From Mesostigma viride (taxonomy: Eukaryota; Streptophyta; Mesostigmatophyceae; Mesostigmatales; Mesostigmataceae): DNA of 64,000 bases. Location: assembly GCA_009746045.1 (NCBI GenBank), contig RPFO01000175.1:1832898-1896897 (forward strand). Reading direction: 5' to 3'. The position numbers were made by a program, and so were the translations under genes. Each line of letters opens with the position of its first letter. Position 1 is the first letter of the stretch. This document shows, piece by piece, positions 34,324 through 58,808 of the stretch. The notes below the pieces were generated by a model that saw only the letters and a list, made by a program, of their open reading frames with translations, was not told where the DNA came from and searched no databases.

Positions 34324-34888
34324 GGAATACAGCAGTAGTAGTGTAGAATAGATAGACCGTGGCCTTGTACATGTAAGCCTCCTACAGGCTCTATACCAGC
34401 TGACTCACGAGTCTCCCTTAGCCATGCACATGTGTGCCTATGATGTGCCACACTCCAGATGATGCCTAGCCTTATTTAGTAATGTTGTGCCCATGCAGGC
34501 AGTAACTCTCTGCTGCATGAGATGCCATGCCCTAGCTTTTTGTATAGCCATGCTGATCTTCCCCCCATGACAGGCTCCCCCTTCGCTGGGCATAGCTTGA
34601 AGACCATGGGGATGCAAGTGCCCTGGTGCACCTAGAGCAAGGGTCCTTTACATTCCCACCCTTGCAGGAAGTAGCTTAGAATGTATTATAGGCCATATGC
34701 CCCTTCTCTGGGCTATGTGCTACATATACTCCCAACGGAGTTATGTTCCTAATTAATTAATTAAGTAGCTTCCATCATCATTCCGTCATCATTCCGTCAT
34801 CGCGACTAGGAGAAGTGCACCACCCTTATGCTGGCATCTGCCACCCCTATAGTGACCCTATAGTGACCGCGGCCTAGGATGGGTCTCA

Positions 34889-34918
34889 CCCTAAGCCCTA
34901 AACCCTAAAACCCTAAAC
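34889..34918 (+). repeat. Telomere-like CCCTAA(A) repeats in the left TIR
   Basis: Four tandem CCCTAA-type units (CCCTAAG, CCCTAAA, CCCTAAAA, CCCTAAA) lie 125 bp from the element end and are mirrored in the right TIR. Plant and many algal telomeres use CCCTAAA or CCCTAAAA units. Confidence 0.75.
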
Positions 34919-35035
34919 CACTTGCAAAAACAGAAGTGCCCCCCTGCCACCACTGCTCACCAGGTTGTGATATTTAGGCTGGCATCTGTCACCACCCCGG
35001 CAGTTGTGATGGTGTGTTTGGGGTGTGACAAGGAT

Positions 35036-35411
35036 GGCGAAAAATTGTCCTTAGTTACTCTTAAGAGAAAGAACGGACAATTTTTCGCCACCCGCCACCC
35101 CTTGGCGCGGGTCATGGGAGGTGTTTTGTCAAGGTGTGAGAGTGATGGCGAAAAATTGTCCTTAGTTACTCTTAAGAGAAAGAACGGACAATTTTTCGCC
35201 ACCCTGCCACCCCTTGGCGCGGGTCATAGGAGGTGTTTTGTCAAGGTGTGAGAGTGATGGCGAAAAATTGTCCTTAGTTACTCTTAAGAGAAAGAACGGA
35301 CAATTTTTCGCCACCCCCCCCACTGGCCGGCGCTGAGGTGGCGTGGGTTGTTGGATGTGGCGAAAAATTGCACGTACTTACTCTTAAGAAAAGACCGCCC
35401 AATTTTTCGCC
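35036..35411 (+). repeat. Array of four tandem hairpins in the left TIR
   Basis: Hairpins at 35,036-35,089, 35,147-35,200, 35,259-35,312 and 35,359-35,411, with a 100-112 bp period. Each has a 15-bp stem (GGCGAAAAATTGTCC / GGACAATTTTTCGCC) around a 24-base loop that holds a second palindrome (CTCTTAAGAG). The fourth has a variant stem and loop with compensating changes (TTGCACG / CGCCCAA only partly paired). The repeats are separated by a conserved GGCGCGGGTCAT..GAGGTG block. This is a candidate origin or protein-binding array. Confidence 0.9.
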
Positions 35412-35578
35412 ATGTCCTCGCAGGGTGAGGGAGCCGGCGAGGGCCGCGCGGCGGGGTGTGACCGGAACCGGATCGACGTCTACTCGAAGACGAGGAGACA
35501 GTGAGCGCGACGTCTTGGAGGTTGTAAACCGTTTTTACAAAGAAATGCATGGCAGAAAAACAGGCTTTAATATTAAAA

Positions 35579-36355
35579 CTACTTATCCGCTCCCTGCAGG
35601 AAAGGAGCGATTTCATCCATCGACAGGCCAGACAACGACGTGATCGAATAATCCTTCTCATCGCCCCACCACGAGGGTTTATACCTATCAAGAAACGCAT
35701 GCATGTCCGCCTTCGAAATTTCCAAGCAACCACCGCCACGGCTATTGCCCTTCGCCCCCTTGGCATAAATTCCTAGAGTCGGGTTCAACAAGCTGTTGAT
35801 GAGACCGCTGCATTGCGCAAAAGACAAACTACCAGCCTCGCCTGCCCTCCGCCGGTATCCAAATGTTGAGCGCATGAACCAGGCCTTGTCGGCAATTTCG
35901 CTATCAATTTTATTCCCTAGTGCAATCGTCTCGTCGCGCGTCAACTTCATTGTGAGATTGGACGGATCAGCCGTCGTGATGAAGTCGATGATAGGCGTCC
36001 CTTCTAGTAGCTTGAGCGTAATGGCCAGAGACTGTGCTAGTCCAAAACGAGAATACGCCTTCAAATCAAACAAGGACTCTGACTTCTGCAGAATCAACAG
36101 ATTGTCTCTAAAATGCTCCTTGGTTCCTAGTCCCGTCAACTTCGAATATTGCCGAACGCCAACGTACGCCTTCCTCCCCATCTCCTTGTCCAGAATTTGA
36201 GGGAGCTCGTCGTCGATGAGATCATACGGAATCTCGTACAACCGATGAGTCAATTCGTACACCGCCTTCAGACGCATTTCGTACGGTGAAAGTGGAACCG
36301 TGCCGCCGATTCTCCCCTCTAGATCCTTGTACTCCTCCTCGCTCAGAAGCACCAC
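35579..36355 (-). CDS. Likely C-terminal part of the primase-helicase (or separate small protein)
   Basis: The open frame of 258 codons (first in-frame ATG at 36,277) continues upstream without a stop into the helicase gene in another frame. The helicase frame ends only 24 bp away, right after a C6 run near 36,400. One extra C there would join the two frames into a protein of roughly 1,190 residues. The sequence (LRLKAVYELTHRL region, LGTKEHFRDNLLILQKSES, LTRDETIALGNKIDSEIADK) is soluble and charged, with no motif I recognise. A missing base in the assembly is the simplest explanation; a programmed frameshift or an independent gene starting at 36,277 is possible. Confidence 0.6.
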   Translation of the reverse strand: MVLLSEEEYKDLEGRIGGTVPLSPYEMRLKAVYELTHRLYEIPYDLIDDELPQILDKEMGRKAYVGVRQYSKLTGLGTKEHFRDNLLILQKSESLFDLKAYSRFGLAQSLAITLKLLEGTPIIDFITTADPSNLTMKLTRDETIALGNKIDSEIADKAWFMRSTFGYRRRAGEAGSLSFAQCSGLINSLLNPTLGIYAKGAKGNSRGGGCLEISKADMHAFLDRYKPSWWGDEKDYSITSLSGLSMDEIAPFLQGADK

Positions 36356-36378
36356 CTCCCTGTCCTTGTCTGGATCTT

Positions 36379-39165
36379 CTAGTACCGGAAGCGGGGGGCG
36401 TCGATGTCCCCCAACTCCTCCACTGCCGACACCTCCACGCCGTAGTCCTCCGTCAGTATCTTGATGAGATTTCCCTTGTAATGGGACCTCGACACCGCGA
36501 GATCTTGCTGGTTCCGGCAGAAGAGGCGGAATTTGGGACAGTTTCTGTCATAGATACGCGACTTGTCCGCGCTCCAGTCGCAGACTACGTCGGCGTTGTC
36601 GAACAGCAGCTGGATGAGCGCAGTGTCCCCCGCGATCATGTTCTCGACGATCGTACCGTAGTCCGTTGGAGGCCTGTCAAGAAGCGAAGTCGTGTCTCGA
36701 TAGAAGATGACCATCTCTCCCTTGACTAAGTGGCGCACCCTGAAAATTTGCTGGAGGGTTGTCGTGTAGCTCGCGTAGTGGTCCCCGTTGATGAAGAGTC
36801 CCACCATGCTGTCGAACGTGTGCTCCGTGTAGCTGACTCCAACCGTGATCGTGGGGCTGAAGATCAAAAAGTCCAAGTCAGCCCACGCAGCATTCGCGCC
36901 AAACTCCAGATCCTCCTTGCTCGTCAGACTAGTGTAGAGACGCCCGTTCTTGCGCTTGTCGATGAAGGGTTTGAGTGCCTCATACGCCATGGCGGCCTCT
37001 TTTTTGCCAGACATTGGGCAGAAAATCCTCTCTCCGGCCTCTATCCTCCTCTCACACTCAGTAACAAACCTGTCCACGCAGACCTTTCGCCAGTTCTTTT
37101 CTGATGTCACATCCACCCATCGCAGAGTCCTGTTGGTAGGGCGCCGGAAGGTGTTGCAATCCACCTCCATAGTATCCGCCGCGCGATAGGCCGCTATGAA
37201 CTCGTATACCTTTCGAGTAACGGTAGCGTCTAGCGCAATCACGACCTTGGACATCTCAATGAGCCTGATGAACTTCCTCAACACCTCGCGCTTGTATTTC
37301 ATGTGGCCCTGCGAAATCGCGGTGAGGGTGTTATATATTTCGTCTAGGATGAGGAGATCGAACGGTTGGTCTGTGACGCGCAAGATGCTGTTAAGAACGA
37401 CCAGCACCCTGTCATCAGACATCATTCCCTTCGGACCGCTGAGGTAGTGACGGAAATTCGGGTCATTGGACAAGATATGGAACGCGTTGTCCTCCCATGC
37501 AATCGTCCTCCCGCGCTCGCCAAGAGACTTGTAGTTGCGATCCTCCTCCTTGGACAGGCTGATGTTAGCCACCATGCAGCACACGCGGATACCTGGATCC
37601 CTCCTCACCGCCTCGTTGACGAGTTCACGAATCCTCTCAGATTTACCTGTCCCGCAGTTGGACTGGACGAGGATGGTGCTCTTGTGCGGGCCTCTAAATA
37701 GCGCATCCCAGCTGAAAGGCCTGATTTTCTCGGACGAGTACGTGTGAGTGAACGGCACTTTGTCCGAGTCCGCGAGCTTCATCACGGGCGGGGAGATCTC
37801 GATGAATCGGTGCTGTGAGTCCTGGTGGCATCTGTACTGTACAGCGCCATTAGGGAGTAGCAGGTTATAAGGCCCGTTGTTGTCGTGTATCTTGAGGCAG
37901 ATCCTGCATAACGGATCCACAGAGTCGACGGAGTACTTGACGAACGTTGCGACACCTCGATCGGATTCTTTACAGGTTGTGCGCATATACTTGCATCCAG
38001 GCGAAAACTTTTTCATTGCTTCGATGGATGGCGAGATGTCCAGGCCCCGAGGTGGTGGGATAGTCTTCCCATACCCTCGAAACACTGTATGGCTCGTTTC
38101 GGATAGTTCCGCATCATCGACATGGGGGAGCCGGGTCAGTCCCTCTTCGTTGAAGACAGTCACCAAATATTCGCCGACGTCGGAACTACCCCCTGGGACT
38201 GGGCGGAGGTACGCGTCCTCGCCGCTGTCTCCGCGCTTCTTCATCCCTATCATGCGAAAGGCCCGGTACCTCGAATAGATCATTCTATCGTAGCAAAACT
38301 TGATGTCGTGTTTAGGCGCCCAAACGCCAGTTGTTTTCTCCACAATCGGGTTCCCGTTCGCGTGCATGTCCTCCCAATCCTCTTTCGAGTGCTGGGACTT
38401 GACGAGTCTCTGGCACACCTCAGACTGATATCCTGAAGATAAATCCATCGCGCACTGAAGAAGAAACGACTGAAAAAGCTCTCCCATCTTGACACGATCC
38501 TCCATTGTCGGGATGTAGATCGTCGGCACCGTGACATGAACAGAGTTCTTGAAAATGCCGCTCCTGACGCGATGGCCAATAAGGACCCGCATATCTCGCT
38601 CTTCCTCGACATTTATCTCGTACACGTCGTTGAAGAACATGGATATGGCCGCTTTTGCGTACTTCTCCAGCTGGTAGTCGATGGGTTCTTCCGTTTCCCA
38701 GTCAAAATCGAAATATGGGACGACGCTCACGTCGGGGGATAGAATTTCTAGCAAATGCGGATCGCTTGTTGATAACTCCGCATGGGTCTTGATCAAGTCC
38801 TCCCTGCACCCGAAAGCGGCATACATGTTCGTTTTTTTGTACGTGTTCAGCGCCATGATGTACTTCATCCCACGAGAGCGACCATACGCCTCCGAAGCGT
38901 CTTGGGGTTTTTCCTCTTCGTACGAGTACATCACCCCTGGCGTCCGAGCAAAGAAAGGCGTATCTTTCGACGCGAACCACAGAGGAACAAATTCCGCGGC
39001 GGTCGACATCTTAGAGGTTGTGTGAGCGCAAGAGTGTGGATTGTCGTGGGAGAGTCCGCCTTTATTCCCGTGGGAGATCTCCCACGAGGAATCGAATCGT
39101 GTCGGCTTGTCGGTTACGTCGTGTCGGTCGACCGTGTCGTCATGCAGGTTGAAGTTCGAGACCAT
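36379..39165 (-). CDS. Archaeo-eukaryotic primase fused to UL9-like superfamily 2 helicase
   Basis: 928 codons from the ATG at 39,165; a second ATG at 39,009 (MSTAAEFVPLWFASKD) may be the true start. The primase half has PYFDFDWETEE (DxD metal site, about residue 150), FKNSVHVTVP (sxH motif) and YDRMIYSRYRAFRM. A cysteine/histidine cluster follows (CRICLKIHDN ... YRCHQDSQHRF). The helicase half has Walker A SNCGTGKSERIREL (about 505), Walker B LLILDEIYNTL (about 607), VIALDATVT (about 643) and a motif VI-like LQQIFRVRHL (about 805). This is the layout of herpesvirus origin-binding (UL9-type) helicases joined to a herpes/pox-type primase, known also from some giant and asfar-like viruses. Role: initiation and priming of viral DNA synthesis in the nucleus. 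The C-terminal end appears frameshifted into the next frame. Confidence 0.8.
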   Translation of the reverse strand: MVSNFNLHDDTVDRHDVTDKPTRFDSSWEISHGNKGGLSHDNPHSCAHTTSKMSTAAEFVPLWFASKDTPFFARTPGVMYSYEEEKPQDASEAYGRSRGMKYIMALNTYKKTNMYAAFGCREDLIKTHAELSTSDPHLLEILSPDVSVVPYFDFDWETEEPIDYQLEKYAKAAISMFFNDVYEINVEEERDMRVLIGHRVRSGIFKNSVHVTVPTIYIPTMEDRVKMGELFQSFLLQCAMDLSSGYQSEVCQRLVKSQHSKEDWEDMHANGNPIVEKTTGVWAPKHDIKFCYDRMIYSRYRAFRMIGMKKRGDSGEDAYLRPVPGGSSDVGEYLVTVFNEEGLTRLPHVDDAELSETSHTVFRGYGKTIPPPRGLDISPSIEAMKKFSPGCKYMRTTCKESDRGVATFVKYSVDSVDPLCRICLKIHDNNGPYNLLLPNGAVQYRCHQDSQHRFIEISPPVMKLADSDKVPFTHTYSSEKIRPFSWDALFRGPHKSTILVQSNCGTGKSERIRELVNEAVRRDPGIRVCCMVANISLSKEEDRNYKSLGERGRTIAWEDNAFHILSNDPNFRHYLSGPKGMMSDDRVLVVLNSILRVTDQPFDLLILDEIYNTLTAISQGHMKYKREVLRKFIRLIEMSKVVIALDATVTRKVYEFIAAYRAADTMEVDCNTFRRPTNRTLRWVDVTSEKNWRKVCVDRFVTECERRIEAGERIFCPMSGKKEAAMAYEALKPFIDKRKNGRLYTSLTSKEDLEFGANAAWADLDFLIFSPTITVGVSYTEHTFDSMVGLFINGDHYASYTTTLQQIFRVRHLVKGEMVIFYRDTTSLLDRPPTDYGTIVENMIAGDTALIQLLFDNADVVCDWSADKSRIYDRNCPKFRLFCRNQQDLAVSRSHYKGNLIKILTEDYGVEVSAVEELGDIDAPRFRY

Positions 39166-39363: not shown

Positions 39364-40647
39364 CTACTTTTTCCTCGGCCTCAGCCGACGTCCGCCAGTC
39401 TCGCCGCCCTGAGGAGAGGGGCCCCCCGCCTGCCGCTCGTAAACGGCTCCTGTAAGTACGTCGTGCCCCATCAAGTCACCAGCCCATTTTCGCTTTTTCC
39501 ACGAAGCGCCCTTCAGGAAACGGGTGATGTACGCCTGCCTCGTTGCATCAATGCCGTGGTAGATGCGGTTGTACTTCGCAGAATAATACTCGTGCTTCAT
39601 GTATTCGCCTGGATTTTTTGGGTCCTCGAACACGTACTTCTGATGAGCTCGAGCCTGCAACGCGTTAATCAGCTTCTTGTACCCGTCTGGAATTTGGTAG
39701 TCGTACGTGCCGTACGTCTCTGCCGTCTTAAAACGTTGAATTATCATGCGGCGCTCGCTCGGAATGTATCCGTTCTCGTGTGGCTCGAGCTCGCTGATAG
39801 AACTGACAACGCGCATTTTGTCGTGGTCGTACCTGGTTGGTGGCAGTTTCTCGCCGGACAGGTAAATAAGACCCATCAAAGCGGCGTCAGACGTAGGGTC
39901 CTTTTTGTACTCGGCGGCGGCGATCCGCTGGAGCTGCTCGTACGTATACCTCAGTGGCTTGCTCTCGGCCCTGTCGAATTTCCTGTCGAGGTCGCCGACC
40001 TTCAGCTCATTGACTCGAGCAGCGTACGCGTCCGTCACGTCGCGTGGGAGCCTCTTTTCAGGTGGCATCATTCGATTCACCCCGTTTATCACTCCGAGCA
40101 AGTTCTTCTCGTTCTCCCTCCACGCATCCTCTTTCGAGTGTGCGAGCTTGCGTTTGGGTTCCGAGGTTTCGTGGACGACGCGCAGGACACGGGCGGTGTC
40201 GGCGAGGCAGTCGACTGATTCGTCCTGCGAGCACCCCAGCCTGTCGAGGAGAACTCGGAGCCTGCCGATGTACCCCTTCGCGGTTTTGCGCGTCGCCCCG
40301 CGCTCTCTCGAGGGCCTGCCAGGCTCGTGATGCTCTGGCCGGGCATCCGCTGCGGCGACGGCCTCGTCGAAGGTCCAGTATCGTCCATCAGTAGGTCGCG
40401 CAGGCGGTTCCTCGTGGTGCGGTGGCTCCGGCGAGGGTGGAGAGGTCGCCTGCAAGCCGATTTTTTCAGCGCACTCGGGGTTATTTGCGATCCATCGGTC
40501 ACTGGGATTCCAGACGCCCTTCTTGACCTTGCTTTTCGCCGAGATGCAGTTCGTCTGGTCGCGGGCGATTGCTCGCCTCTTCGCCTGGGCCCGTCGCCAT
40601 TGCTCGCGACGCTCCTCTACGGTCACCGTCATCTGATGACTGAACAT
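39364..40647 (-). CDS. Tyrosine recombinase/integrase
   Basis: 427 codons. The N-terminal third is variable and Pro-rich. A SAM-like helical domain follows (GYIGRLRVLLDRLGCSQD), then the catalytic domain from about residue 240 (PLRYTYEQLQRIAAAEYKKD, ALMGLIYLSGEK). Catalytic positions that can be matched are Lys in RFKTAETYGT, Arg in GIDATRQAYITRFL, His in DLMGHDVLTG and the Tyr nucleophile in GAVYERQ. The first His of the usual HxxR box appears to be Asp (DATR), and the first Arg is not clear in LSGEKLPPTR. Tyrosine recombinases integrate many PLVs and virophages. Ends in a basic RRLRPRKK tail. Confidence 0.75.
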   Translation of the reverse strand: MFSHQMTVTVEERREQWRRAQAKRRAIARDQTNCISAKSKVKKGVWNPSDRWIANNPECAEKIGLQATSPPSPEPPHHEEPPARPTDGRYWTFDEAVAAADARPEHHEPGRPSRERGATRKTAKGYIGRLRVLLDRLGCSQDESVDCLADTARVLRVVHETSEPKRKLAHSKEDAWRENEKNLLGVINGVNRMMPPEKRLPRDVTDAYAARVNELKVGDLDRKFDRAESKPLRYTYEQLQRIAAAEYKKDPTSDAALMGLIYLSGEKLPPTRYDHDKMRVVSSISELEPHENGYIPSERRMIIQRFKTAETYGTYDYQIPDGYKKLINALQARAHQKYVFEDPKNPGEYMKHEYYSAKYNRIYHGIDATRQAYITRFLKGASWKKRKWAGDLMGHDVLTGAVYERQAGGPSPQGGETGGRRLRPRKK

Positions 40648-40993
40648 GAGACAATTTTTTGGCTCGAGGCTTTTTATACCCTACGGGGTGGATCCTTGGG
40701 CGCCCTCGAGGCCGTTTCGGTTCGTGTCGTTTTTCCGTTTTGGAGGGTGAGCGCCCACGTGGACGCCTGCGATCGCCCACCAAGGCGAGGATGGCCAATC
40801 GGATTTCGGGGCTCATGTCGTGACAGGTGGACGGAATCGTGTCGTTGTGGCCTGCTTCTTGAAGGATCCTGACGACACGTTCTAGAGTTTTCTGCCCCAG
40901 TCGAGAACCCGAACAATATCGGAGGAGTGCTTGGGTGTCCAACACGTACTCCTTCTCGGCGCCTGCGTATCGTTTGATGGACGGAATATCCAT
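40499..40993 (-). CDS. Small DNA-binding protein with AT-hook
   Basis: Up to 164 codons. The first ~90 residues form a folded region (DIPSIKRYAGAEKEYVLDTQ, SPEIRLAILALVGDRR); an AT-hook-like PKRPRGRPRIHPVGYKKPR follows. The last ~50 codons overlap the recombinase start by 149 bp and look like shadow sequence. An A6 run near 40,650 could hide a one-base error that would end the protein just inside the recombinase start. Function unknown; AT-hooks bind the minor groove of AT-rich DNA, so a regulator or nucleoprotein is plausible. Confidence 0.5.
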   Translation of the reverse strand: MDIPSIKRYAGAEKEYVLDTQALLRYCSGSRLGQKTLERVVRILQEAGHNDTIPSTCHDMSPEIRLAILALVGDRRRPRGRSPSKTEKRHEPKRPRGRPRIHPVGYKKPRAKKLSHVQSSDDGDRRGASRAMATGPGEEASNRPRPDELHLGEKQGQEGRLESQ

Positions 40994-41015
40994 AGTATAT
41001 CATGTTCAGAGAAAA

Positions 41016-41898
41016 TTATTTTATCGAGAGAAATGTATTGAAGTTTCGACGAAACATTTTTTTCGGGTCGCGCTGGTCGAAGTCGACAGCGAAGAAGTCG
41101 TGAGGATCGTCCTTGACGGCGTGGTCCCATAGCGCGAGAAACTCGTCCGGCGCCACAGCCCCCGCGCTCTCTTCCGCGATCTGTCGCGCGGCTCGATGGT
41201 CCTTCGTTCTGAACAGCGCAAGAAACGATATATTCGCTCGCACTGCTCGTGGTACGCCACCGCTCGTGTACGCCTGTGTCAGGAAAATCATGCTCGTGAG
41301 GAAGTGTCTGTGTTTGAACGCGAAAGCCGCAACAGCGTTTTTGCTAGAGCTCTGATAGAGGGCACTGCCTTGCATGTCGTCTATCAGAATGAGCGACGAA
41401 GGAGGACCGTGCTCGAACCTTGTCGCAGGTTTATCCCAGTTCATTGCATCAAGGCGTAGGTACATGGAGAGGTCCATGAGTTCTGCGTTTTTATTCCCGT
41501 CCACGTATTCGCGTTTAAACGTTTCCCACACCTTGAGATCGTCTTGTACCTCTCGTATCGTGGAGGTCAGACTTTATATGATCTATCATCCCATCGAATG
41601 CCAGGTTAGAGTAGACTTCCATCGTCATAGCTGGTTCCGGGAGCTCCTTGTATTTTGGCTCCGTGTGGGCACTCCCTGAAATGAGGTACAGCTTGTCGAA
41701 TGAGTTGTTAGCAAAGTAAGCCTTCGCCATGTTGACTGCCGATGTAGTTTTCCCAGACCGTCGAGCTCCGCAGAAGTTTGCGATGAAATGAAGACTCGGC
41801 ATATTCGGTGGAGCAGGACGCTGTGGGGCGTATCGTTGCTTTATGTCTTTGTTCTCAAGTGAATGAATTCGTCGCTCTTCGATGATAGCCATTATCAT
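41016..41898 (-). CDS. FtsK/HerA-family genome-packaging ATPase (A32-like), one frameshift
   Basis: Two frames join near 41,570. The first (from ATG 41,898) has Walker A FCGARRSGKTTSAVNMAKAY and YLISGSAHTEPKYKEL. The second has Walker B SLILIDDMQGSALYQ, then SMIFLTQAYTSG and PRAVRANISFLALFRT, the sensor/arginine region typical of A32-type ATPases. Together about 290 residues, the normal family length. The ATPase pumps the genome into the preformed capsid and is a PLV/virophage/NCLDV hallmark. Its ATG overlaps the stop of the upstream coiled-coil gene (ATGA). Unlike the other breaks in this window, this one looks like one extra base near 41,575. Confidence 0.85.
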
Positions 41899-42437
41899 TC
41901 TGAAGACATTTTAATCGTCCAGACTAGCAAGGAGAGACGCGCGGATGCGGCCATGCGCATCTCGTATGGCGTCATCGCGACAGGTGGCGGTGGTGGAGGT
42001 GGGAGCTGTCGGGTCTTGATCGGGGGTGGCGGAGAGTCCGGCTCTGTCTCCTTGGGCTTTCGACCCCGTCTTGGTTTTGGCGTGTCGGCGGGGGTTGAGG
42101 CGACGGAATCTTCAGCGAGAAGGCGTTCAATCCGCGATTTGTTGCGGGCTTCTTGCAGCTCGAGTTCGACTAGCCTTTGCCGCTGAATCTCCAATTCCTT
42201 TGCAAGGACCTTTCGTTTCGTTATCTCTGCCTCCTTTTCTTCGTTTCGTCTCTTCTCCCTCTCGGCTTTTGCGCGTTGCTGGTAAACCCTCATTTTGTCG
42301 CGAAGGGCTTTTTTCTGTTCATCATTCAGCGGTTGTCCCTTTCGAATTGTCTTGACCAGGTCAACCTGCTCTTCCCGCGTCTCGGCGAAGGTTTCGTCTT
42401 GGTAGCTCGTTGGGGTCTCTGAAGCCTCAGAGGCCAT
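41895..42437 (-). CDS. Coiled-coil protein with Pro-rich C terminus
   Basis: 180 codons. The central highly charged helix (about residues 40-110: QQRAKAEREKRRNEEKEAEI, RQRLVELELQEARNKSRIER) is a strong coiled coil. It is followed by an AT-hook-like PKPRRGRKPKE and a polyproline stretch, then a short hydrophobic-rich end. Co-directional with and overlapping the ATPase gene by 4 bp. I recognise no family; a scaffolding or DNA-binding role would be a guess. Confidence 0.6.
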   Translation of the reverse strand: MASEASETPTSYQDETFAETREEQVDLVKTIRKGQPLNDEQKKALRDKMRVYQQRAKAEREKRRNEEKEAEITKRKVLAKELEIQRQRLVELELQEARNKSRIERLLAEDSVASTPADTPKPRRGRKPKETEPDSPPPPIKTRQLPPPPPPPVAMTPYEMRMAASARLSLLVWTIKMSSE

Positions 42438-48460: not shown

Positions 48461-49137
48461 TGTTGCGAACCCGACCCTTGGAACGGGCGCAACAATGGAA
48501 TAAATTATGTGTTTTGGTTTGTTGTCATAGTCCGTAGGACTTTGGGACTCATTTCGGGACTTAATTTGGGAATTGTCCCTTGGTCAGGACTTTTGTATGG
48601 AATTATGATAGTTTGTGTGATTCGGACCAGTTATTTTGGGCCTAGGTTGATGTATGCGATCTTCTAGGGGCCGGTGCAGTCGCGCCGCGCTGCGTACTTT
48701 ATAGCTGGTTGAGATATTGTACTCATGCGTGGATTCTGTAGCCTGGCGAGGGTCGATGTCAACCCGAGGATCTTGTGTGGACTGCATGCTTCGTTATTCT
48801 CTGGAAGGTCGGCGCCATGTCGGCGCCACTTGCCAGCTTGGTGGCAGACCTAGGTGAAATTGGTCCGAGGACGAGAGTCTCGTCCTCTTGGTTCGATGAA
48901 TGTAAAGTGCGATGAAGCCTACACATTGAACCTGGGGCACTTATCCATTTGTAATTGGTATTGCTAGCCATTATAAGTGTGTATTAAATAGCTTGGCATC
49001 AAGTCGCGGTGCCAGATATCTCACGACCCCAGTCGTGAAGCGCAATCTGCATTAGGCCACCTTGATTCTTCCTATTACCGGCACAGTTGATCTTTCGCGA
49101 CGTAGCTCAGGCTCGGTGTCTGGGCTGGCACGTTACA
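48461..49137 (+). repeat. 5' LTR of the gag-only element
   Basis: 677 bp, TG...CA. A TATA-like TACTTTATAGC lies near 48,694 and a 10-bp-arm palindrome at 48,867-48,887, shared with the LTRs of the 9,094-20,133 element. Confidence 0.95.
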
Positions 49138-49138
49138 C

Positions 49139-49151
49139 TGGTTATCGGAGG
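49139..49151 (+). other. Primer-binding-like site
   Basis: TGGTTATCGGAGG, one base after the 5' LTR. The same sequence sits at the same place in the element at 9,094-20,133. The primer tRNA is not identified. Confidence 0.6.
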
Positions 49152-50305
49152 TTTGTGTTGCTGGCAAGGTTAGCTAACTCTCGCAGAGAGAGCTAGTGTA
49201 GCCAGTTAGGAAGACCAAGGCGGAGCTTGGTGTAGATAGAGGTTCCATTATTCAACGACCGCTGGACAGGTCGGCGGCAATCCCGCAAGGGATTCAACGA
49301 CGACCTAGACGGCGAGCGGCCAGTAAGGAATACTCGGCGGGGTCAGCAGCGATCCCGTGGTGTTGGGCTGCCGACGGTAGCGGCTAAAGCCCCAGTTTTC
49401 AACGACACCCGGTGGCGGCCAGAGCTCCGGCTTTCAACGACACCAGGTGGCGGCCAGAACTCAGGGTTTTCAACGATACTGACGGCAGTAAGGCATCGGT
49501 AAAGCAATATATATAACTCCTTCTTGTCCCCTGTCTTACCCACGCGCGTAGCAACGGGGTATATGTTTTCTGTCGTGTCCGATTTCATGTTCGTGACTGT
49601 TGGTACCCACGTTGCCCCAGAGGCCAACGTTCGTGAGCCGTGGGCGGACCCCCAGAGGGCAACGCTGCCTACGGCTCGAGGGTAGTCACCGGCTGGCCGT
49701 TGCCTTACTGTGTTGCCGGTGGCTGTACCTCAACGTTCTTCGTACTGTTTGTGAACGTTTTGTTTCTGCCTTGTGTTTCTCTCTCGCTGTGAGCACGTCA
49801 CCTGCACGTAGAGGTATCCTGGGTGGGCTGTCCTCCTTTTCTTTCCCTTCCTGCATTTCATGCTTCAATACCGTGTGATATTGCTTTATACCTAATCGGT
49901 AGTTCATGGGAACCTCTCGCAATAGACGTAATAAGGACGGAGGTTATAGACGTATTCATCACAGAGGCAGGTTAGTCTATTAGGGATAATATACTACTCC
50001 CATAAGGGCTGCACCAGACTAGGTATCTCACACAGCTACCTGCACATGATGTGTTGCGAGCACTAGAGCAGCTCCGCCTGGGCACCTCCTTTAGGTCATA
50101 AGCACTAGATAGTGTTTGATACAGCAGCTCTATAGCACTACTGGTCATAGCCTAGTGTTAATAGTTAATAGCTAATAGTTGATATCAGTAATAAGTACGA
50201 TTAAAGTATATATATACATTACGCGGTTGTCATCTCTCTCTCTCTCTCTCTCACTGGGGAGGTGTTGCTTGCAGTGTAAGGTGTGGGTAAGGTACAACGG
50301 CCTAA
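49152..50305 (+). other. Non-coding 5' leader of the gag-only element
   Basis: About 1.15 kb without a convincing gene. It contains repeated blocks of the type TTTCAACGACACC.GGTGGCGGCC (49,398-49,450) and a short CT repeat (50,234-50,251) just before gag. The short frames at 49,343-49,922 are unsupported. Confidence 0.6.
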
Positions 50306-52341
50306 ATGCCCCGGAGGCATAGGAGGCGAGGTACAGGTACTGCACAGTCCCCAGAGGACAATAGAGAGAAAGAAGACGCGGCTAGCGCGTCCAGTCAGGG
50401 TTCCAGAAGATCCAGCATGTCCAGTCAGGGTTCCAGAAGATCTAGCACTTCCAGAGGCTCCCGGAGATCCGATGCAGCCGCTAGGGTTACCGCACAACGG
50501 CAGACTATTCTGGAGTCGCAGATAGAACAAGCTGCCCTAGGGTTTGATCAGCAACAGCAGTCGCCGCAGCGACAGCATCAGCCTCAGCAGTCGCCGCAGC
50601 GACAGCATGTGCCTCAGCAGTCGCCGCAGCGACAGCATGTGCCTCAGCTGTCGCCGCATCGGCAGCAATTGTCTCAGCAGTCGCCGCAGCGACAGCCTCA
50701 GTCTCTGCAGTCTCCGCCGTCGCGACAAACGCAGCAGCAGCAGCAGCAGCAGCGACAGCGACAGCAGACGCAGCAGCAGCCGCGACCGCTATTGACCCAG
50801 CATATGGGCAATTGGGACAGGGTACCTCCTACGCAGCGACCCCCTTCCGTGGAAGACGCGCAGGAGGAGGATGTAGAGGACGCAGGTAGCTCAACAGCCA
50901 GCTCTCCGTTCGTACCCCCGCCTGCTGCTCGCATGGATCGGTACTACCCGGCGACGTACGCGCGCGGGAGCACGCGTCTGACCCATGCATGGGCCGGGCG
51001 TGGACGGGGGGGTCGAGGCCGGAGCCCGGGCGGGTCCCTCGTCGGGTATCCTTCGGGTCTTACGAGCGAGAGTCCAGGTCCCCGCCTAGAGCGCCAGGAT
51101 CGTCGGCCTACGTCCATGGCGACCCATGGGACGATGGACACGCTCCTCCTAGCCCATTCCCCACCGTACCACCATACACACCCGCCAGGAGCGCGCCCAC
51201 GAATGTCAACTTCAGTCGGCTGCCCTTGGACGACCCTGGCTACGAGCATCCCACGTCGGTCCGCGTGCGGCGTGAGTCGGACCGCTTTGCCTTTCGGCGG
51301 CCATCTGACGCCTACGCGCCCCGACGTGGGACTGGCGACTATCCAGCTTGGCGCGGCGCGGACGCTCTTGTATCCCGGCGCGAGTCTGCCCCGTATGCCC
51401 CCTCCCATGGACCGTCCCATTATGAAGCGTGGGCGAGGCGCCAACAGCCCCCCACCTTTTCCAGTCCCGCGTACTGCGAGACGGGCGGGCCCCTGGGAGA
51501 GCCGGTCAAGGCCCCGCCCCTGCCAGATTTCAAGGCGGTGCCCAAGCTCCACGCGGGCATGAGTCCCCGCGAGATCGACGAGTGGGCTCGTATGTGGCAG
51601 CAGCTGTACACAGTATGGTGTGAACACAACGAGTGGCAGCTGGCTACCAAGGTGCTGATCCCGTACGTGGTGGTGAAGTGCATGGACCCATCAGTAGTCG
51701 GGATGCTTAACGTCGAGAGTGTGGCGGCTCAGTCATACCCGCAGACGGTTGAGGAACTGCTGGAGCGCATCCGGCGCAAGCTCATCCCTCCCGGCTATCG
51801 ACTGACCGAGCGGTTTGAGTTCGGCCGCCTACGTCAAGGCAACACTGACTTGGCGGAGTTCCTCACCACCTTTGACTCCTTTGCGGCGCGGCTGACCGAC
51901 GACCTGACGTGGACCGAGTACAAGATTCGGTTTCTGGAGGCAATTCACCCTGACCTCCTGGACGAGGTTAAGACGCACTACGCGGAGGTGCCCTGGGCGA
52001 ATCTTGACATCCACGCCGTCCAGCAGTACCTTCTCCAAGTGGCCGACATCATCACGCACCAGGGCTCAGCCAGCCCACGGGAAGTTGAACCCGTCCGGGA
52101 GGAGGAATCCGAGGACGATGAGGTGCCCGCCACACAGCTACACACCATCGACGTGTCCAAGGCCCGCTGCTTCAGGTGCAACGAGATCGGACACCTCAAG
52201 AAGGACTGCCCGCGACTCAAGACGCGCACACGTGTTCCAGCGTGGGCCCACAAGTTCCAGCAAGGCCCCCCGGATGACGACGACCAGCGCGCGGACGCGC
52301 GGTCCCCTGGGGAAGGGGAGGGGTCCCACACTCGGGTTTGA
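50306..52341 (+). CDS. Gag protein with CCHC zinc knuckle, one frameshift
   Basis: Starts MPRRHRRRGTGTAQSPED at 50,306; a long Gln-rich repeat region (SPQRQH units, about residues 85-165) follows. The frame changes near 51,010, at a G7 run, by the equivalent of one missing base, into the 50,989-52,341 frame. There the capsid-like core reads AGMSPREIDEWARMWQQLY, FGRLRQGNTDLAEFLTTFD and EYKIRFLEAIHPDLLDEVK, and a zinc knuckle CFRCNEIGHLKKDC lies near 52,170-52,211. About 680 residues in total. Gag forms the particle that packages element RNA. The intact nature of the rest and identical LTRs suggest the break may be an assembly error. Confidence 0.75.
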
Positions 52342-53960
52342 TCCCTCAGTGCGCTGGAACCTCTCGGCCCTCCTGTGGTCGTGGCGGAGTACCTATACCA
52401 GGCACGTGACCAGCAAGAGGAGGCGGAGGAGGCCGACGTGTACACGGTCACTTCCCCCGGGAGACGTGATGGTCGCAGCTAGTATTGGTGCTTGTGTCAT
52501 TCTACCAAACTAGCTGCGGGCCATTGGTGCCTCTTGCTCATACGTTTCCCGGACGACATCTTCGGACGAGGGGGAAGGGAGGAGTAGAGTTAGTCAACCA
52601 GGTAGAACAGACGCCTGCACCAGATGCAGACGCGTCGGCCCCAGAGGCCAATAACGTAGATAGGAACGACGGGAAGGCCCCAGAGGTCTCCCTGCCTTCT
52701 GCCTTACCTGGAGGTGGCCTTCCGCTGTGGCTGACTCGACATCAGGGGTCTTGCAGACGAGATGGCGAGTTCAGCGCTTGCGCGCGCATCTCCGCACAGG
52801 CAAGACGTGATTCAGCTTGGTGGTCCTCCCTGCATCGACTGCATTGGTCAGTTCTGCACGCGAGCACCTCCCGTAGTCGTTGATGACGGCTGCGGTGATC
52901 CATATTTTTGCCTTTGCTCGGCTGTGGCGTTTACAACGCTGTCACATGATGGCACGTGCGCGCCCCGCGGACCACTGTTGCGAACCCCAATTATTGCGTG
53001 TCCGCGCCACCAGCTAGCTGTGCATGGTCGCGCGCAACGTGTCCGCCACGCGCGTATTACTATCCCAGTTGTGATAAGCATTGGCGGAATTTTATATGCT
53101 GCCGCAGCCCTGCACTAGCGCGGTCGCCAGGGAGGGCAGCGGTGAGAGGGAGATTGATGGATTTGTGGGAAGTGGGGGAGATTCCAGGAAGGATTATGGG
53201 GGTTCATGTTCCTGTTGTTCCAGTCCAGAGATCCGGAGTTTCCAGTCACATTGCCCTGTGATTTGTTAATTCCAGTTTCCAGTGGTGCCTCACGTGATGA
53301 GGTCACGGTATTATGTTGCTTGAGTCGACCGTGAAATGTCATGCTTGACCTGGGGTAGGTAGCCGGCCTTAGGCCAACCTGGACCTGGTTCTTGGTGTAA
53401 GGTCCCGGTAGATAGGACAAACGTGGGAGTCGGAAGGTGGACACTATAGGAATGACTTCGTGGTGGGAAGACAGCCAGCAGGCAAGGTGGAGCGCCCCAC
53501 ACCTATAATGCCAATGGATGCCCTGTACCGTCAGTACTGGGAATATCCCCGCCGTCTGGAGCAGTCTCTAGTCATGGAAGCCCCGCCATGGCGAAAAAGT
53601 CAAACGAGCTGTTCATTCAGGCGACTGTTAACCCACGCGGAGAAGTTTCTGTGGTCAAAACCCGAAAGCCCTCACGTGATAGGATCTGGTTTCCTCCCTT
53701 CGGCCTATAGTAGGGAGATACGTTGACTACGTCAAGACTTGTCCTTGTGCGGCGAGTTTTGGGGGAATTGGTTTTACTGGCCCGTTGGAGAACAAGGGCT
53801 GGGACATAGTACCCCTATGGTCAATCTGATTTTGCCCTGCGTGGCAAGTAGAGTAACCCTGCGTGGTTAGTAGTATGTTTGTTGTGTGCTTTCTCCCTTT
53901 CGTTGTTGGTCCTTACCTGCATGACGGTAGGGACTACCGTCCCCCGGGGAGGGGGAGGAG
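52342..53960 (+). other. 3' interior of the gag-only element, no pol
   Basis: About 1.6 kb where a pol gene would be expected. I find no YxDD, DD35E or RNase H pattern in any frame. The frame 52,762-53,118 is Cys-rich but unrecognised. The segment 53,750-53,900 resembles 10,140-10,230 of the large LTR element. It ends in the polypurine tract before the 3' LTR. Confidence 0.6.
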
Positions 53961-54637
53961 TGTTGCGAACCCGACCCTTGGAACGGGCGCAACAATGGAA
54001 TAAATTATGTGTTTTGGTTTGTTGTCATAGTCCGTAGGACTTTGGGACTCATTTCGGGACTTAATTTGGGAATTGTCCCTTGGTCAGGACTTTTGTATGG
54101 AATTATGATAGTTTGTGTGATTCGGACCAGTTATTTTGGGCCTAGGTTGATGTATGCGATCTTCTAGGGGCCGGTGCAGTCGCGCCGCGCTGCGTACTTT
54201 ATAGCTGGTTGAGATATTGTACTCATGCGTGGATTCTGTAGCCTGGCGAGGGTCGATGTCAACCCGAGGATCTTGTGTGGACTGCATGCTTCGTTATTCT
54301 CTGGAAGGTCGGCGCCATGTCGGCGCCACTTGCCAGCTTGGTGGCAGACCTAGGTGAAATTGGTCCGAGGACGAGAGTCTCGTCCTCTTGGTTCGATGAA
54401 TGTAAAGTGCGATGAAGCCTACACATTGAACCTGGGGCACTTATCCATTTGTAATTGGTATTGCTAGCCATTATAAGTGTGTATTAAATAGCTTGGCATC
54501 AAGTCGCGGTGCCAGATATCTCACGACCCCAGTCGTGAAGCGCAATCTGCATTAGGCCACCTTGATTCTTCCTATTACCGGCACAGTTGATCTTTCGCGA
54601 CGTAGCTCAGGCTCGGTGTCTGGGCTGGCACGTTACA
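53961..54637 (+). repeat. 3' LTR of the gag-only element
   Basis: Identical to the 5' LTR over 677 bp as far as can be compared by eye; followed by the GGTTC duplicate. Confidence 0.95.
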
Positions 54638-56412
54638 GGTTCGATCCCAACCACGGTTTCCGTGAAAGAAAATAAGGTAACAGGGGTTTCTGGGGCATAT
54701 AACGACGAATCCAACCTGTTATCATTTACCTACACCCCTCCTTCCACCACCGTCACACTTGCTACAACGGCAGGCGCTAATCCTACTGCGAGCCCTATCG
54801 CAGTGGCTGCCACTTTCAGTAAGTCCATAGCTGGTTTTTCCATAGACGACATAGTAGTTACCAATGGGACCGCTTCCTCGTTGACAGGCAGTGGTTCATC
54901 TTATACATTCTCGGTCACTCCCGTCGCGGCATACACCCCCACCACTGTTAGCGTGGGAGTGGATGTGGTGGACGGTGGAAACGACGCATCCAATACTCTA
55001 ACATTCACATTGAGCCCTCCACCTATCACGGTCGCTCTATCTACAGCGGCAGGGACGTATCCAACCACAAGCCCCGTCACAATGGATGTCACATTTGACA
55101 AGCCCGTGACTGGGTTTGGTAGCGGGGACATCTACGTGAACAACGGAACAGCGTCGTCGGTAACAGGTACCGGGGCATCGTACCAGTTCGCAGTGACACC
55201 AACCACTCCATATTCCCAGACGATCGTGAGGGTGGTCGATGGCTTGACGGTAGGCGAATTCGGGGTCACAAACGCCGAGTCTAACACGGTCGCGTTCACC
55301 TACTCCCCGCCGCCTACCGTCACCCTCGCGACTTCGGCCGGGGCAACACCGTCCGCGAGCCCAGTCGGCGTGACGGCTACCTTCAGCCGGTCAGTCACTG
55401 GTTTTGCGCTCGGGGACATCGTCGTTACCAACGGGACGGCGTCCAACTTGGTGCAGGTAAACGCGGCGTTTTACACGTTCGACGTGTCAGGAACCTCGAA
55501 CACATTGACGACCGTCAGCGTGGGTGCCAACGCGGCGACAGACTCCGTGTCGGGCCATGGGAACTCGGCGTCTAACTCGCTTACTTTTACGTATACGCCA
55601 GTTTACAACCCCGCAACAGACCCCAATCTGTTCGCGTGGTACGATCCGTCCGACAGCGCCACGGTGTTCAGCGACACGTCGGGCACAACCCAGCAAAACA
55701 CGACAGGTGGGAACGTGATGCGCGTGAACGACAAGGGGCCGAACGGGTACCACGTGACGCAGGCAACTTCCGCCAAGTGCCCGACACTGGATACGGCGGA
55801 GCTGAACTCGAAACGGTCCCTCCGTTTTATTAACTCGCGGTCTGGCTTGTTGGAGTCCGTGAACAATTTCTGGAACGCGGTCGGGGTAAGTGCGAGTGTT
55901 TTTCTAGTCGCCAAACAGCTAACGACTGCAACGTATCCAGAAATAGGGAGTTTTACGGGTATTAGAGGTTATATGCTTGGATCGTCGAACGGCGATTCTT
56001 ACATCATGTCTTATCAGTCAGAGAGCATGATCGTTCTCCTCTTTACTCCCGGTGCTATACGCGACACCGTGAGCACCAGGGCTCAGTTCTTTGACAACAA
56101 GGCACACGTTCTGGCGCTTTCATGCAACAGCAGTACAAACGCCTTTCTCACCCGCTTCGACGGACGACCCGGCTATGGCAGAGTGGGATCGGATCCTATA
56201 CTTGGTTCAGGGAATCTTTCTATTGGAGGAGACACGGCCAACGCGAGTCGTGCTTTTGATGGGTGGATTGGCGAGATCCTTATCTACAACACCGCCAAAA
56301 CGTCAGCGGAGCTTGAGCTGATACGCGGCTACCTCGCAGCCAAGTGGGGGGCACCGTTAACTCCTCCAGCGTAGGCCTCTATAACTAAATATCTATCCAT
56401 ATCATGTAAGCA

Positions 56413-56925
56413 ATGGACTATCCAAATTATTACCAGATAGTACTTGACAGCGAGGCTTCATCGAGTGACAGTGACGTTGACAATGCGGCATTTCGTTTTA
56501 AAATTAAACCAGATCCAAGTGCTCCCATCATTGACGGGGATTGGAGAGGCGGGCTTCACTTTGCGTCCATTGCAGGAATCGAAAGCACCCCCCCTCACGT
56601 GCTCATTGGCTTGGTATCCCCCAGTTTCTTGGGTGGCGAGCACAATTTGGACCAGGGGGTTGTGTTGGGATCAGAAATATGCAAAAAAGCAACAGCAACA
56701 ACGACCACTTTCGACTATTCTTTGATCAATGATCACGCATATTTCAATTTGAGGAATCCACATCTCTTTAGGAACGGGGGCATTCTGGAGATAAGGTTGG
56801 CCCACATAGATAGGGACGTAGGAGACACGGAATATCAAAACGTTGCTGCATACGATTCTTTCGTCTGCGTGTTACAATTTGAGAGGGTGCGAGGTTTTAA
56901 TAAATGCAAATGTCATGGCAAGTAA
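56413..56925 (+). CDS. Unknown virion-block protein
   Basis: 170 codons, intact. MDYPNYYQIVLDSEASSSDS, then alternating strands (NAAFRFKIKPDPSAPIIDGD, LHFASIAGIES, HVLIGLVSPSFLGG, LEIRLAHIDRDVGD) and a C-terminal RGFNKCKCHGK. Beta-rich and soluble, so a small capsid or spike-associated protein is plausible. Preceded by TAAATATCTATCC, similar to the AAAAATATCT before the major capsid gene. No family is recognised. Confidence 0.6.
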   Translation: MDYPNYYQIVLDSEASSSDSDVDNAAFRFKIKPDPSAPIIDGDWRGGLHFASIAGIESTPPHVLIGLVSPSFLGGEHNLDQGVVLGSEICKKATATTTTFDYSLINDHAYFNLRNPHLFRNGGILEIRLAHIDRDVGDTEYQNVAAYDSFVCVLQFERVRGFNKCKCHGK

Positions 56926-57268: not shown

Positions 57269-57841
57269 ATGGCTTCCCGAAACGCAGGGCCTTGCGAGAA
57301 GGCGTTGGCAATGCTTGGAAAAATCCTCGATGGTCTCGAGGACGGCCAGACAAAGATATCCGACCAGCTCGCACACCTGACGCACAAGGTCTCCCTTCTT
57401 TCCGGAAACGAAGGTGCTGTTGGAGGCACCGGACCTACCTGCGAGGTCTTCAAGATTCACGACGCCGGATATGACGATGTCGACCGCAAGACGCCAAAAA
57501 TTTGCGTCGAGTGGGTCTACGAGAAGAATGCGGCAAAGCCGAGGAAGGTCGAGGACCGCTGCGAGTGGATTCGCCTCGACCAAGCCGACGGGTGCGTTAA
57601 GATGGTTGACGATTTCCTCAATGGCTTCTCCAAGTCCAAGCGCCAGCCAGGCATTTCCCCCATTGCGCTCTACAGGGCATGGGAGGAGGTAAAGAAGGGT
57701 TTCGAGGACGCAAAGACCGCCACTTCCAATGGCAGGAAGAGGAGCCGCGAGGGAGCGTCAAGCTCCCACGGCCATGGCGACAAGAAGAACTCCGCCTCGT
57801 ACGTGAAGAGCCTGACTGGACACTCCAAGGACAAGGAGTAG
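57269..57841 (+). CDS. Unknown protein with coiled coil and basic C terminus
   Basis: 190 codons from the ATG at 57,269 (MASRNAGPCEKALAMLGKIL); the longer frame upstream lacks an ATG. A short coiled coil (EDGQTKISDQLAHLTHKVSL), a central folded part (TPKICVEWVYEKNAAKPRKV, GISPIALYRAWEEVKKGFED) and a Lys/Arg/Ser-rich tail with a nuclear-localisation-like NGRKRSREG. The last gene before the right TIR. It could be a terminal-repeat-associated or host-manipulating protein, but the sequence does not show which. Confidence 0.5.
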   Translation: MASRNAGPCEKALAMLGKILDGLEDGQTKISDQLAHLTHKVSLLSGNEGAVGGTGPTCEVFKIHDAGYDDVDRKTPKICVEWVYEKNAAKPRKVEDRCEWIRLDQADGCVKMVDDFLNGFSKSKRQPGISPIALYRAWEEVKKGFEDAKTATSNGRKRSREGASSSHGHGDKKNSASYVKSLTGHSKDKE

Positions 57842-58112
57842 ATTGTCGTCTTGTTGACGACGGCAACGAGCTTGCCATTTTCGCTCTTGTCGAGCTGATA
57901 ACGAATGTAAACGTGTTATATTTTTTAATGAATTCGTTTATGCAGTATAAAACGCGTCAATATATGCTGAAAACAATTTTCATTTCGTCTCGAATTGCAG
58001 TTCTAACTGCAGGTTAAAAATCCAGAGTAAACCTCTTATGCATCGACACAGGTCGTGTGGGATTCTTGCATAGGTCGTCTGAGTTTCCAGATTAATAAAC
58101 CCTAACACTCTG
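57842..58112. other. AT-rich spacer before the right TIR
   Basis: No gene. It contains a perfect-arm inverted repeat around TTGCAGTTCTAACTGCAGG (about 57,997-58,015) and AT-rich DNA. The equivalent left-side spacer (35,461-35,578) does not match it, so the TIR boundary is at 58,113. Confidence 0.6.
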
Positions 58113-58161
58113 CACACCCCGCCGCGCGGCCCTCGCCGGCTCCCTCACCCTGCGAGGACAT

Positions 58162-58536
58162 GGCGAAAAATTGGGCGGTCTTTTCTTAAGAGTAAGTACG
58201 TGCAATTTTTCGCCACATCCAACAACCCACGCCACCTCAGCGCCGGCCAGTGGGGGGGTGGCGAAAAATTGTCCGTTCTTTCTCTTAAGAGTAACTAAGG
58301 ACAATTTTTCGCCATCACTCTCGCACCTTGACAAAACACCTCCTATGACCCGCGCCAAGGGGTGGCAGGGTGGCGAAAAATTGTCCGTTCTTTCTCTTAA
58401 GAGTAACTAAGGACAATTTTTCGCCATCACTCTCACACCTTGACAAAACACCTCCCATGACCCGCGCCAAGGGGTGGCGGGTGGCGAAAAATTGTCCGTT
58501 CTTTCTCTTAAGAGTAACTAAGGACAATTTTTCGCC
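58162..58536 (-). repeat. Array of four tandem hairpins in the right TIR
   Basis: Hairpins at 58,162-58,214 (variant), 58,260-58,313, 58,372-58,425 and 58,483-58,536, mirror images of the left array. Confidence 0.9.
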
Positions 58537-58652
58537 ATCCTTGTCACACCCCAAACACACCATCACAACTGCCGGGGTGGTGACAGATGCCAGCCTAAAT
58601 ATCACAACCTGGTGAGCAGTGGTGGCAGGGGGGCACTTCTGTTTTTGCAAGT

Positions 58653-58684
58653 GGTTTAGGGTTTTAGGGTTTAGGGCTTAGGGT
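58653..58684 (-). repeat. Telomere-like TTTAGGG repeats in the right TIR
   Basis: TTTAGGG, TTTTAGGG, TTTAGGG, CTTAGGG, 124 bp from the right end; the mirror of 34,889-34,918. Confidence 0.75.
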
Positions 58685-58808
58685 GAGACCCATCCTAGGC
58701 CGCGGTCACTATAGGGTCACTATAGGGGTGGCAGATGCCAGCATAAGGGTGGTGCACTTCTCCTAGTCGCGATGACGGAATGATGACGGAATGATGATGG
58801 AAGCTACT

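Follow-up and report, generated by a model that had tools for sequence, protein, structure and literature searches.

The 64,000-nucleotide stretch of DNA analysed here, called the window throughout (C224:1832898-1896897, from an assembly of 440 Mb in 2243 contigs), carries a set of virus-like genes that is bounded, between positions 34764 and 58808, by inverted repeats of about 0.7 kb each. Its interpretation as an integrated element of the Polinton-like virus (PLV) type with terminal inverted repeats (TIRs) is well supported by gene order, homologues and the many copies. We consider it likely that this element belongs, as one of many copies, to a large family of PLV-type proviruses that has recently been active in Mesostigma viride, and that the family uses (TTAA)n microsatellites as insertion targets, for the most part 3′ tails of host retroposons of the long or short interspersed nuclear element type (LINE/SINE), via its own tyrosine recombinase. 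We lean, with less assurance, towards a broader proposition, in which the integration address of a PLV is an exchangeable cassette made of the tyrosine recombinase, the TIR end and a short repeat core. A swap of this cassette between capsid lineages would shift insertion from TA-ended, unspecific sites to the (TTAA)n tails of LINEs and SINEs, the palindromic TTAA core of joined TIRs being crossed with the tail.

The host, a streptophyte green alga, is almost surely Mesostigma viride or something very close to it, because the capsid model P0007 of the gene set labelled Mesvir1 is identical over 393 aa (100%, the capsid gene alone being compared) to a capsid gene of this genome at C1215:3130119. 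We take the label Mesvir1 to stand for Mesostigma viride. Homologues of the element proteins were found among the Mesvir1 gene models and on contigs.

The ends of the element and their immediate surroundings are as follows (repeats and tracts without strand).

34397..34749, plus strand: 3′ end of a host retroposon (the 'LINE1' tail, ...CCCAACGGAGTTATGTTCC), which abuts the element and is repeated at 63172-63551, 3100-3181 and 23486-23587
34750..34764: left (TTAA)n tract, 15 nt
34765..35460: left TIR, from repeat comparison, containing telomere-like CCCTAA(A) repeats and, at 35022-35316, tandem units of 112 bp
58113..58807: right TIR, from repeat comparison, with 112-bp units at 58256-58550
58808..58835: right (TTAA)n tract, 28 nt

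The TIRs claimed in the original prediction were borne out by an alignment of 711/710 bp including the TTAA tract, in which the two copies are 99.7% identical and differ by one substitution and one poly-C length. The 6-bp target duplication claimed with them had to be rejected: 'AG' plus 'TAATTA' is the edge of the (TTAA)n microsatellite tract, 15 nt long on the left and 28 nt on the right. The window contains eight (TTAA)n tracts of at least three units, two of them at the element, and PLV-free copies of the 'LINE1' retroposon end also bear (TAAT)n tails. Within the TIR there is a run of telomere-like CCCTAA/CCCTAAA/CCCTAAAA units, and the 112-bp tandem units match their own reverse complement at ~71%.

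The genome-wide counts of TIR, capsid and recombinase loci are lower bounds. Some contigs duplicate one another's loci, with shared flanks, and distinct insertions are therefore fewer than counted. At least 40 near-full-length TIR matches, the window's two included, were obtained (40 scored of 431 candidates), and at least 12 two-ended copies were recognised among these 40, with more in a second family; readable ends are thus not the rarity that had been supposed. The capsid gene was found at at least 103 loci (103 scored of 515 candidates), 102 of the 103 being without a stop, and the recombinase gene at at least 98 (98 scored of 527 candidates), 92 of them without a stop. At least 19 full-length recombinase rows, including the window and its duplicate contig, are 100% identical to that of the window. 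The element is therefore TIR-bounded, within the 14-40 kb range of integrated PLVs, and present in many copies. On contig C1324 (2506683-2512611) a TIR pair stands only 5.9 kb apart; because of this spacing the copy is presumably internally deleted, and it is possibly mobilised by other elements.

Insertion sites were compared at 40 TIR ends of the window family, of which 21 are stored as left and 19 as right. Among the matches listed, a tract with TTAA periodicity, 11 nt or longer, was found at 37 of the 40, and over all 40 ends the tract has a median of 16 nt and a maximum of 69 nt. Eleven distinct two-ended loci remained after contig C390 had been left out as a duplicate of C224. At 10 of these 11, one of three host retroposon 3′ ends lies within ~80 bp of a TIR, at a distance of no more than 21 nt in nine, and none is present at the C1546 locus; among random host positions of the window the proportion is 67 of 4000. 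The same three ends also occur free of PLVs with TTAA tails of their own (window positions 3145, 63515, 9086, 7119, 28819 and 60825), and one of them adjoins a reverse-transcriptase open reading frame (ORF) at 28883-30637 (RVT_1, E 3.6e-25). A LINE-like element is present in the window in three copies (28784-31146, 60791-63177 and 5966-7154), one with a reverse-transcriptase ORF, each ending in a (TTAA)n tail of the type found beside PLVs.

Two loci bear on the order of events. On C1324 a PLV lies inside the tail of a retroposon stub, and the stub stands between copies of its own duplication, GCAGCTGTGGC(AT); this is the best sign that the tract predates the virus. At C1459 a retroposon end forms the left flank, and the paralogues of the right flank on C1624, C1956 and C1413 are continuous and lack the PLV, the retroposon end and the TTAA tract alike, so that they predate both insertions. 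The habit recurs in subfamilies that combine other capsids with a kindred TIR end: TTAA tracts terminate L029, L031-L033 and L035, L038 and L039 have TTAA units after an altered tip, and L030 has a shorter, altered tract, the ends being readable in all of L029-L039 except L034, L036 and L037.

An internal control is provided by group B elements of the same genome, whose TIR end (...CACTCAATAGGGGTTATATATATAT) gave at least 40 matches (40 scored of 147 candidates). In two group B elements the proteins were compared with those of the window; the ATPase is 54-62% and the coiled-coil protein 58% identical, the recombinase only 29-32%. A TTAA tract of 11 nt was found at none of 20 group B ends (two of which share one flank), and a retroposon end within 80 bp at one of 20. 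Group B ends have instead a short, mostly constant TA stretch with unlike flanks beyond it, on which account a (TA)n microsatellite target, once considered for this group, was dropped. In one pair of group B elements, L047 and L048, the ATPases are 89% identical and the recombinases only ~40%; in group B the recombinase thus changes, by divergence or by replacement, much more quickly than the packaging gene.

A window-type capsid (C1494) is 70% identical to that of group B element B1 and 58% to that of element A1, while the window recombinase is 31% identical to that of B1 and 98% to that of A1, the last over the longest frame (377 aa) of a copy that has stops; the recombinase of B2 is partial. 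In trees of six capsids and five recombinases the deep splits are supported at 100/100 and the inner splits at 81-93. Capsids and recombinases were further paired when no more than 14 kb separates them on one contig and their strands are opposite, with 35 of the 103 capsid rows and 28 of the 98 recombinase rows entered. Window-type capsids were defined by 61-62% identity to P0006 (open frames of 439-441 aa) and A-type capsids by 75-80%; relative to the window's recombinase, type y1 is 93-100% and type y2 82-86% identical. The 23 paired elements comprise 11 with window-type capsid and y2, 6 with A-type and y1, 4 with window-type and y1, and 2 with A-type and y2, TIRs having been read for only some of them. 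The existence of all four combinations points to recombination between elements, and together with the site habits it points to the exchange of a recombinase-TIR cassette, with its target preference, between capsid lineages.

The following mechanism would fit these observations. A circular or end-joined form of the element would carry TTAA units between its two TIR ends, and the tyrosine recombinase would cross this TTAA core with a genomic TTAA tract. The inserted copy would then have TTAA at each side and lack a discrete duplication. Such an outcome is what the crossing of a TTAA core with a TTAA tail leads one to expect and, as TTAA is its own reverse complement, either orientation is possible. 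Recombinase, TIR and target preference would then travel together as a cassette. In cryptophyte PLVs, the available text of PMC12220804 links tyrosine recombinases with missing duplications and proposes a circle, a few putative duplications being noted. If the mechanism holds, retroposon tails are a harmless and renewable landing pad, explaining the many tolerated copies. One algal genome offers a natural comparison of related capsid lineages with two recombinase-TIR cassettes and two site habits, and it shows DNA proviruses living on retrotransposon tails in a streptophyte green alga. As donor end and target are both defined and the recombinase gene is open, integration is directly testable.

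The TTAA units might alternatively be the element's own termini, with insertion unspecific or merely AT-biased, which we regard as unlikely. Such termini would account for units of at least 11 nt at 37 of 40 ends, for the clustering of tract lengths at 13-17 nt and for the absence of the tract from the paralogues of the C1459 flank, and the short, mostly constant TA stretch of otherwise unlike group B flanks may be read in the same sense. They sit poorly, however, with an outer tract edge that ranges from 11 to 69 nt, with 10 of 11 loci beside retroposon 3′ ends that are TTAA-tailed elsewhere without any PLV, and with the C1324 copy lying within a retroposon's own duplication. It is also quite unlikely, in our estimate, that the preference arises from chromatin, repair or selection against other sites, or that insertion proceeds by microhomology repair and not by the recombinase. 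TTAA is common to target and donor, the host is rich in such tracts (the eight in the window, two at the element, are an example) and repeats are harmless landing places, all of which would suit this explanation. Group B, with related capsids in the same genome, nevertheless has the tract at 0 of 20 ends, and the preference tracks the recombinase and the TIR, not the capsid.

Against insertion into pre-existing retroposon tails by the element's own recombinase, several points have to be weighed. Three of the 40 ends are tract-less by the script rule, namely C1546 right (4 nt), C1693 (2 nt) and C390 right; in the last the TIR is garbled and the tract nevertheless visible. Given the clustering of lengths at 13-17 nt, the element's ends may themselves contribute some of the tract. 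The random control (67 of 4000 positions) is drawn from one 37-kb host stretch, and the three retroposon 3′ ends were picked after the flanks had been seen. Searches of the genome with the C1459 and C1324 flanks turned up no empty site that has an intact tract; the former flank is largely multicopy repeat and the latter has no second full copy. At C1459 the tract came with the retroposon or with the PLV, together or in succession, and the paralogues leave the source of the TTAA undecided. Copies in one genome share history, so that the counts are less than fully independent. The recombinase gave no match in Pfam, PHROGs or PDB, and in its tree the two group B rows are long and their placement was flagged as unsure by the program. 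Insertion into (TTAA)n tails by way of the recombinase remains for us the likely explanation of the whole.

The genes lie in two blocks of opposite strand. The minus-strand block holds the candidates for replication, recombination and packaging.

35579..36394, minus strand: C-terminal continuation of the helicase, a separate open frame here (tblastn of P0002, 48%; a single frame in P0002)
36379..39165, minus strand: UL9/origin-binding type superfamily 2 (SF2) helicase (Pfam PF02399, Herpes_ori_bp, E 8.7e-22; phrog_4913, E 8e-18; homologues P0001 and P0002)
39364..40647, minus strand: tyrosine-recombinase-like protein, 427 aa (R..R..H..Y pattern by eye)
40499..40993, minus strand: small ORF, 164 aa (from the ORF list; no Pfam match)
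41019..41910, minus strand: A32-like packaging ATPase, frame broken in this contig (Pox_A32, E 0.0016, below cut-off; 54-62% to group B)
41895..42437, minus strand: coiled-coil-like protein (58% to group B elements)

A three-sequence profile of the helicase also matches PDB structures of the herpes origin-binding protein (E 4e-11). An N-terminal archaeo-eukaryotic primase (AEP) is proposed in the same ORF from a DFD motif seen by eye, and the gene suggests origin unwinding by a UL9-like enzyme working with a host polymerase. The recombinase is a putative one, named after an eye-read R, R, H, Y pattern, in which Q takes the place of the box-II H, and after its habit, not by a profile; R, R and H are retained in a relative of 32% identity, the available piece of which ends before the Y. 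For the ATPase, an open relative of 294 aa from a sister copy with a visible P-loop reaches Pox_A32 at E 1.8e-4, with 21.5 bits at a cut-off of 22.8. Pfam and PHROGs scans, some small ORFs lying outside them, revealed no PolB, protease or retroviral integrase of the element's own, which agrees with the earlier separation of this gene set from classical Polintons/Mavericks. No transposase was seen among the scanned ORFs. The Rfam scan at gathering thresholds and the tRNA scan returned no matches.

The plus-strand block holds the structural candidates and a fibre gene.

42462..44690, plus strand: probable structural gene, in several frames (first ORF 36-44% to group B relatives; 25 N at 44365-44389)
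44716..45219, plus strand: basic protein with a C2H2-like finger (PF00096, E 0.0076, below cut-off; a 67% piece in common with Mesvir1 model P0005)
45222..45566, plus strand: small ORF, 114 aa (a 36% piece in common with P0005)
45460..46323, plus strand: penton-like (minor capsid) protein, intact, 287 aa (gene order and size; 56-58% to P0003 and P0004; no profile match)
46313..46669, plus strand: pVI-like small protein (position and composition; a 34% match where fused in Mesvir1 model P0007)
46685..47988, plus strand: major-capsid-protein gene, pieces in several frames in this contig (pieces 54-71% to P0006)
48201..48460, plus strand: 5′ part of an Ig-like/LamG fibre gene, truncated by a long terminal repeat (LTR) element
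54643..56371, plus strand: 3′ part of the fibre gene, Ig-like repeats and a LamG-like domain (Big_12, E 2.7e-22; Laminin_G_3, E 1.3e-5, below cut-off; 59% to P0008)
56413..56925, plus strand: 170-aa protein (from the ORF list; no Pfam match)
57269..57841, plus strand: 190-aa protein (from the ORF list; no Pfam match)

The order penton-like, pVI-like, capsid-like is one that we take to be adenovirus-like, and Mesvir1 models numbered 19856 and 19858 are the penton and capsid relatives of the window genes. The C-terminal piece of the window capsid is 100% identical over 195 aa to the C1494 copy, which is open over 421 aa. The best profile score for capsid and penton was Capsid_N at E 0.035, below the cut-off, in two of six relatives. 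In PDB neither protein found a capsid relative, only short unrelated matches, the best being an engineered tetratricopeptide repeat (TPR) protein (E 8.4e-5 over 22 residues). At the sensitivity used, no IMG/VR relatives were found for the penton, the helicase, the capsid piece, three alignments or the ATPase. The capsid and penton are thus putative assignments made from order, size and kinship between relatives, with sub-cut-off profile scores. Much of the predicted gene set stands in this graded form: the helicase (E 8.7e-22) and the recombinase-like ORF are there, the ATPase match is weak, and capsid and penton are recognised by order with no profile above cut-off. The same holds for the proposal of an integrated PLV, which gene order, homologues and the many copies sustain and which the profile check of capsid and ATPase left below cut-off. 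Two Mesvir1 models join neighbouring PLV genes, P0001 an ATPase piece with the helicase and P0007 the pVI-like protein with the capsid; proviral genes are therefore hidden in that gene set.

The fibre gene is split by a nested retrotransposon, overlooked in the original prediction, which occupies 6.2 kb of the 24 kb and leaves ~17.9 kb for the viral element itself.

48456..48460 (no strand): GGTTC, left copy of the target duplication of the LTR element
48461..54637, plus strand: nested LTR retrotransposon, apparently non-autonomous (LTR pair, GGTTC on both sides, gag-like ORF)
48461..49137, plus strand: 5′ LTR, identical to the 3′ LTR over 677 bp
50989..52341, plus strand: gag-like ORF (zf-CCHC, E 1.8e-5; Retrotrans_gag, E 0.0027, the latter below cut-off)
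53961..54637, plus strand: 3′ LTR, identical to the 5′ LTR over 677 bp
54638..54642 (no strand): GGTTC, right copy of the target duplication

No pol ORF was seen among the longer ORFs of this gag-carrying element, which entered the fibre gene of the window copy later. A further LTR-like repeat pair, at window positions 9093-20133, has members 98.8% identical to each other and ~90-91% to the PLV-nested LTRs, in opposite orientation; between them, on the other strand, lies a weak integrase-core match (E 0.043).

Neither capsid nor ATPase nor helicase is a single open frame in this contig. Contig C390 (31.9 kb) represents the same locus, with a left flank of 99.8% identity and a right flank of 94% with many gaps, and has the interior of the LTR element at the matching position. 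Over the four stretches compared, C390 and the window are identical at the helicase break and in the LTR-element stretch, while the capsid and ATPase stretches differ by 3 substitutions and 8 single-base length differences. Of the eight, seven affect capsid or ATPase and the remaining one the coiled-coil gene next to them; C390 is the shorter contig at two. Because the contigs differ by single-base lengths, part of the frame breakage is probably consensus error, and neither contig can be taken as right; apparent frameshifts from assembly in such elements are described in the accessible text of Bellas et al. (PMC10120064). The helicase break, common to both contigs, may be real, its relative P0002 being in one frame across it. 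Whether the window holds a decayed fossil, a dead copy with broken capsid, ATPase and helicase, has to be asked in this light. The broken frames, the inserted LTR element and the helicase break shared by C390 speak for it, and C390 is itself two bases short in the capsid gene, where an allelic difference is possible. The eight single-base differences, seven of them in capsid and ATPase, and the artefacts of such kind in PMC10120064 speak for assembly instead, while the sister copies are open and TIRs (99.7%) and LTRs (100%) are nearly or fully identical; a fossil is, to our mind, doubtful, though it keeps some weight. 'Nearly complete', as the original prediction had it, is accordingly right for the ends and has to be qualified for a 6.2-kb retrotransposon and for broken frames, the latter probably in part an assembly effect.

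PLVs are already known, from the accessible parts of PMC10120064, PMC10675990 and PMC12220804, to reach high copy number, to have TIRs and tyrosine recombinase (YR) genes, and to show nested LTR elements and false frameshifts. In the literature search no report dealt with PLVs of Mesostigma or with microsatellites as PLV integration sites, though Mesostigma loci may sit in the supplementary tables of Bellas et al.; one of two papers with both 'Polinton-like virus' and 'microsatellite' concerns, in its available text, repeats inside virophage genomes. As far as the literature searched extends, the targeting of TTAA tracts and retroposon tails by PLVs and its exchange as a cassette are new.

TTAA is found at the junctions of piggyBac and Teratorn elements. 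The Mesostigma element shares TTAA junctions with them and differs by its long tracts, by having no single TTAA duplication and by the lack of a transposase in the scanned ORFs. It resembles in plan the endogenous PLVs of protists and green algae (PMC10120064; Cymbomonas, PMC10675990; cryptophytes, PMC12220804), which, as far as the partial texts go, are likewise TIR-bounded and of high copy number, measure 14-40 kb, encode capsid, minor capsid and A32-type ATPase, in many cases with a YR, and show nested LTR retroelements and false frameshifts. Unlike these, it has a UL9-type SF2 helicase as replicase, no polymerase having been seen, it targets (TTAA)n strongly, and its capsid and penton have neither a profile match above cut-off nor an IMG/VR relative at the sensitivity used. 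The cryptophyte cluster C2 and the MELD virus (PMC12220804) have a primase/SF2-type replicase as here, a likeness of description and not of sequence, and the available text describes no TTAA targeting for them. An AEP joined to a UL9-like SF2 helicase is also the architecture of mriyavirus SF2_hel, pF1055L of African swine fever virus (ASFV) and mimivirus R8 in another virus phylum (PMC11253617, in part); the likeness is drawn without a tree, with an AEP part read here by eye only. The endogenous mavirus-like elements (EMALEs; PMC8547959, in part) are small integrated DNA viruses with TIRs and retrotransposon interruptions, as here, and differ in that the study found no sequence-specific integration and duplications of mostly 3-5 bp. 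In the endogenous nimaviruses of crustaceans, according to the accessible sections of PMC10871703, the integrase type, tyrosine recombinases included, goes with (TAACC)n, 28S ribosomal DNA or (TA)n targets; these are unrelated and far larger animal viruses in which the target habit differs by lineage. In the Mesostigma PLVs, recombinase-TIR cassettes appear to be joined to different capsids within one genome, and the target is (TTAA)n at retroposon tails.

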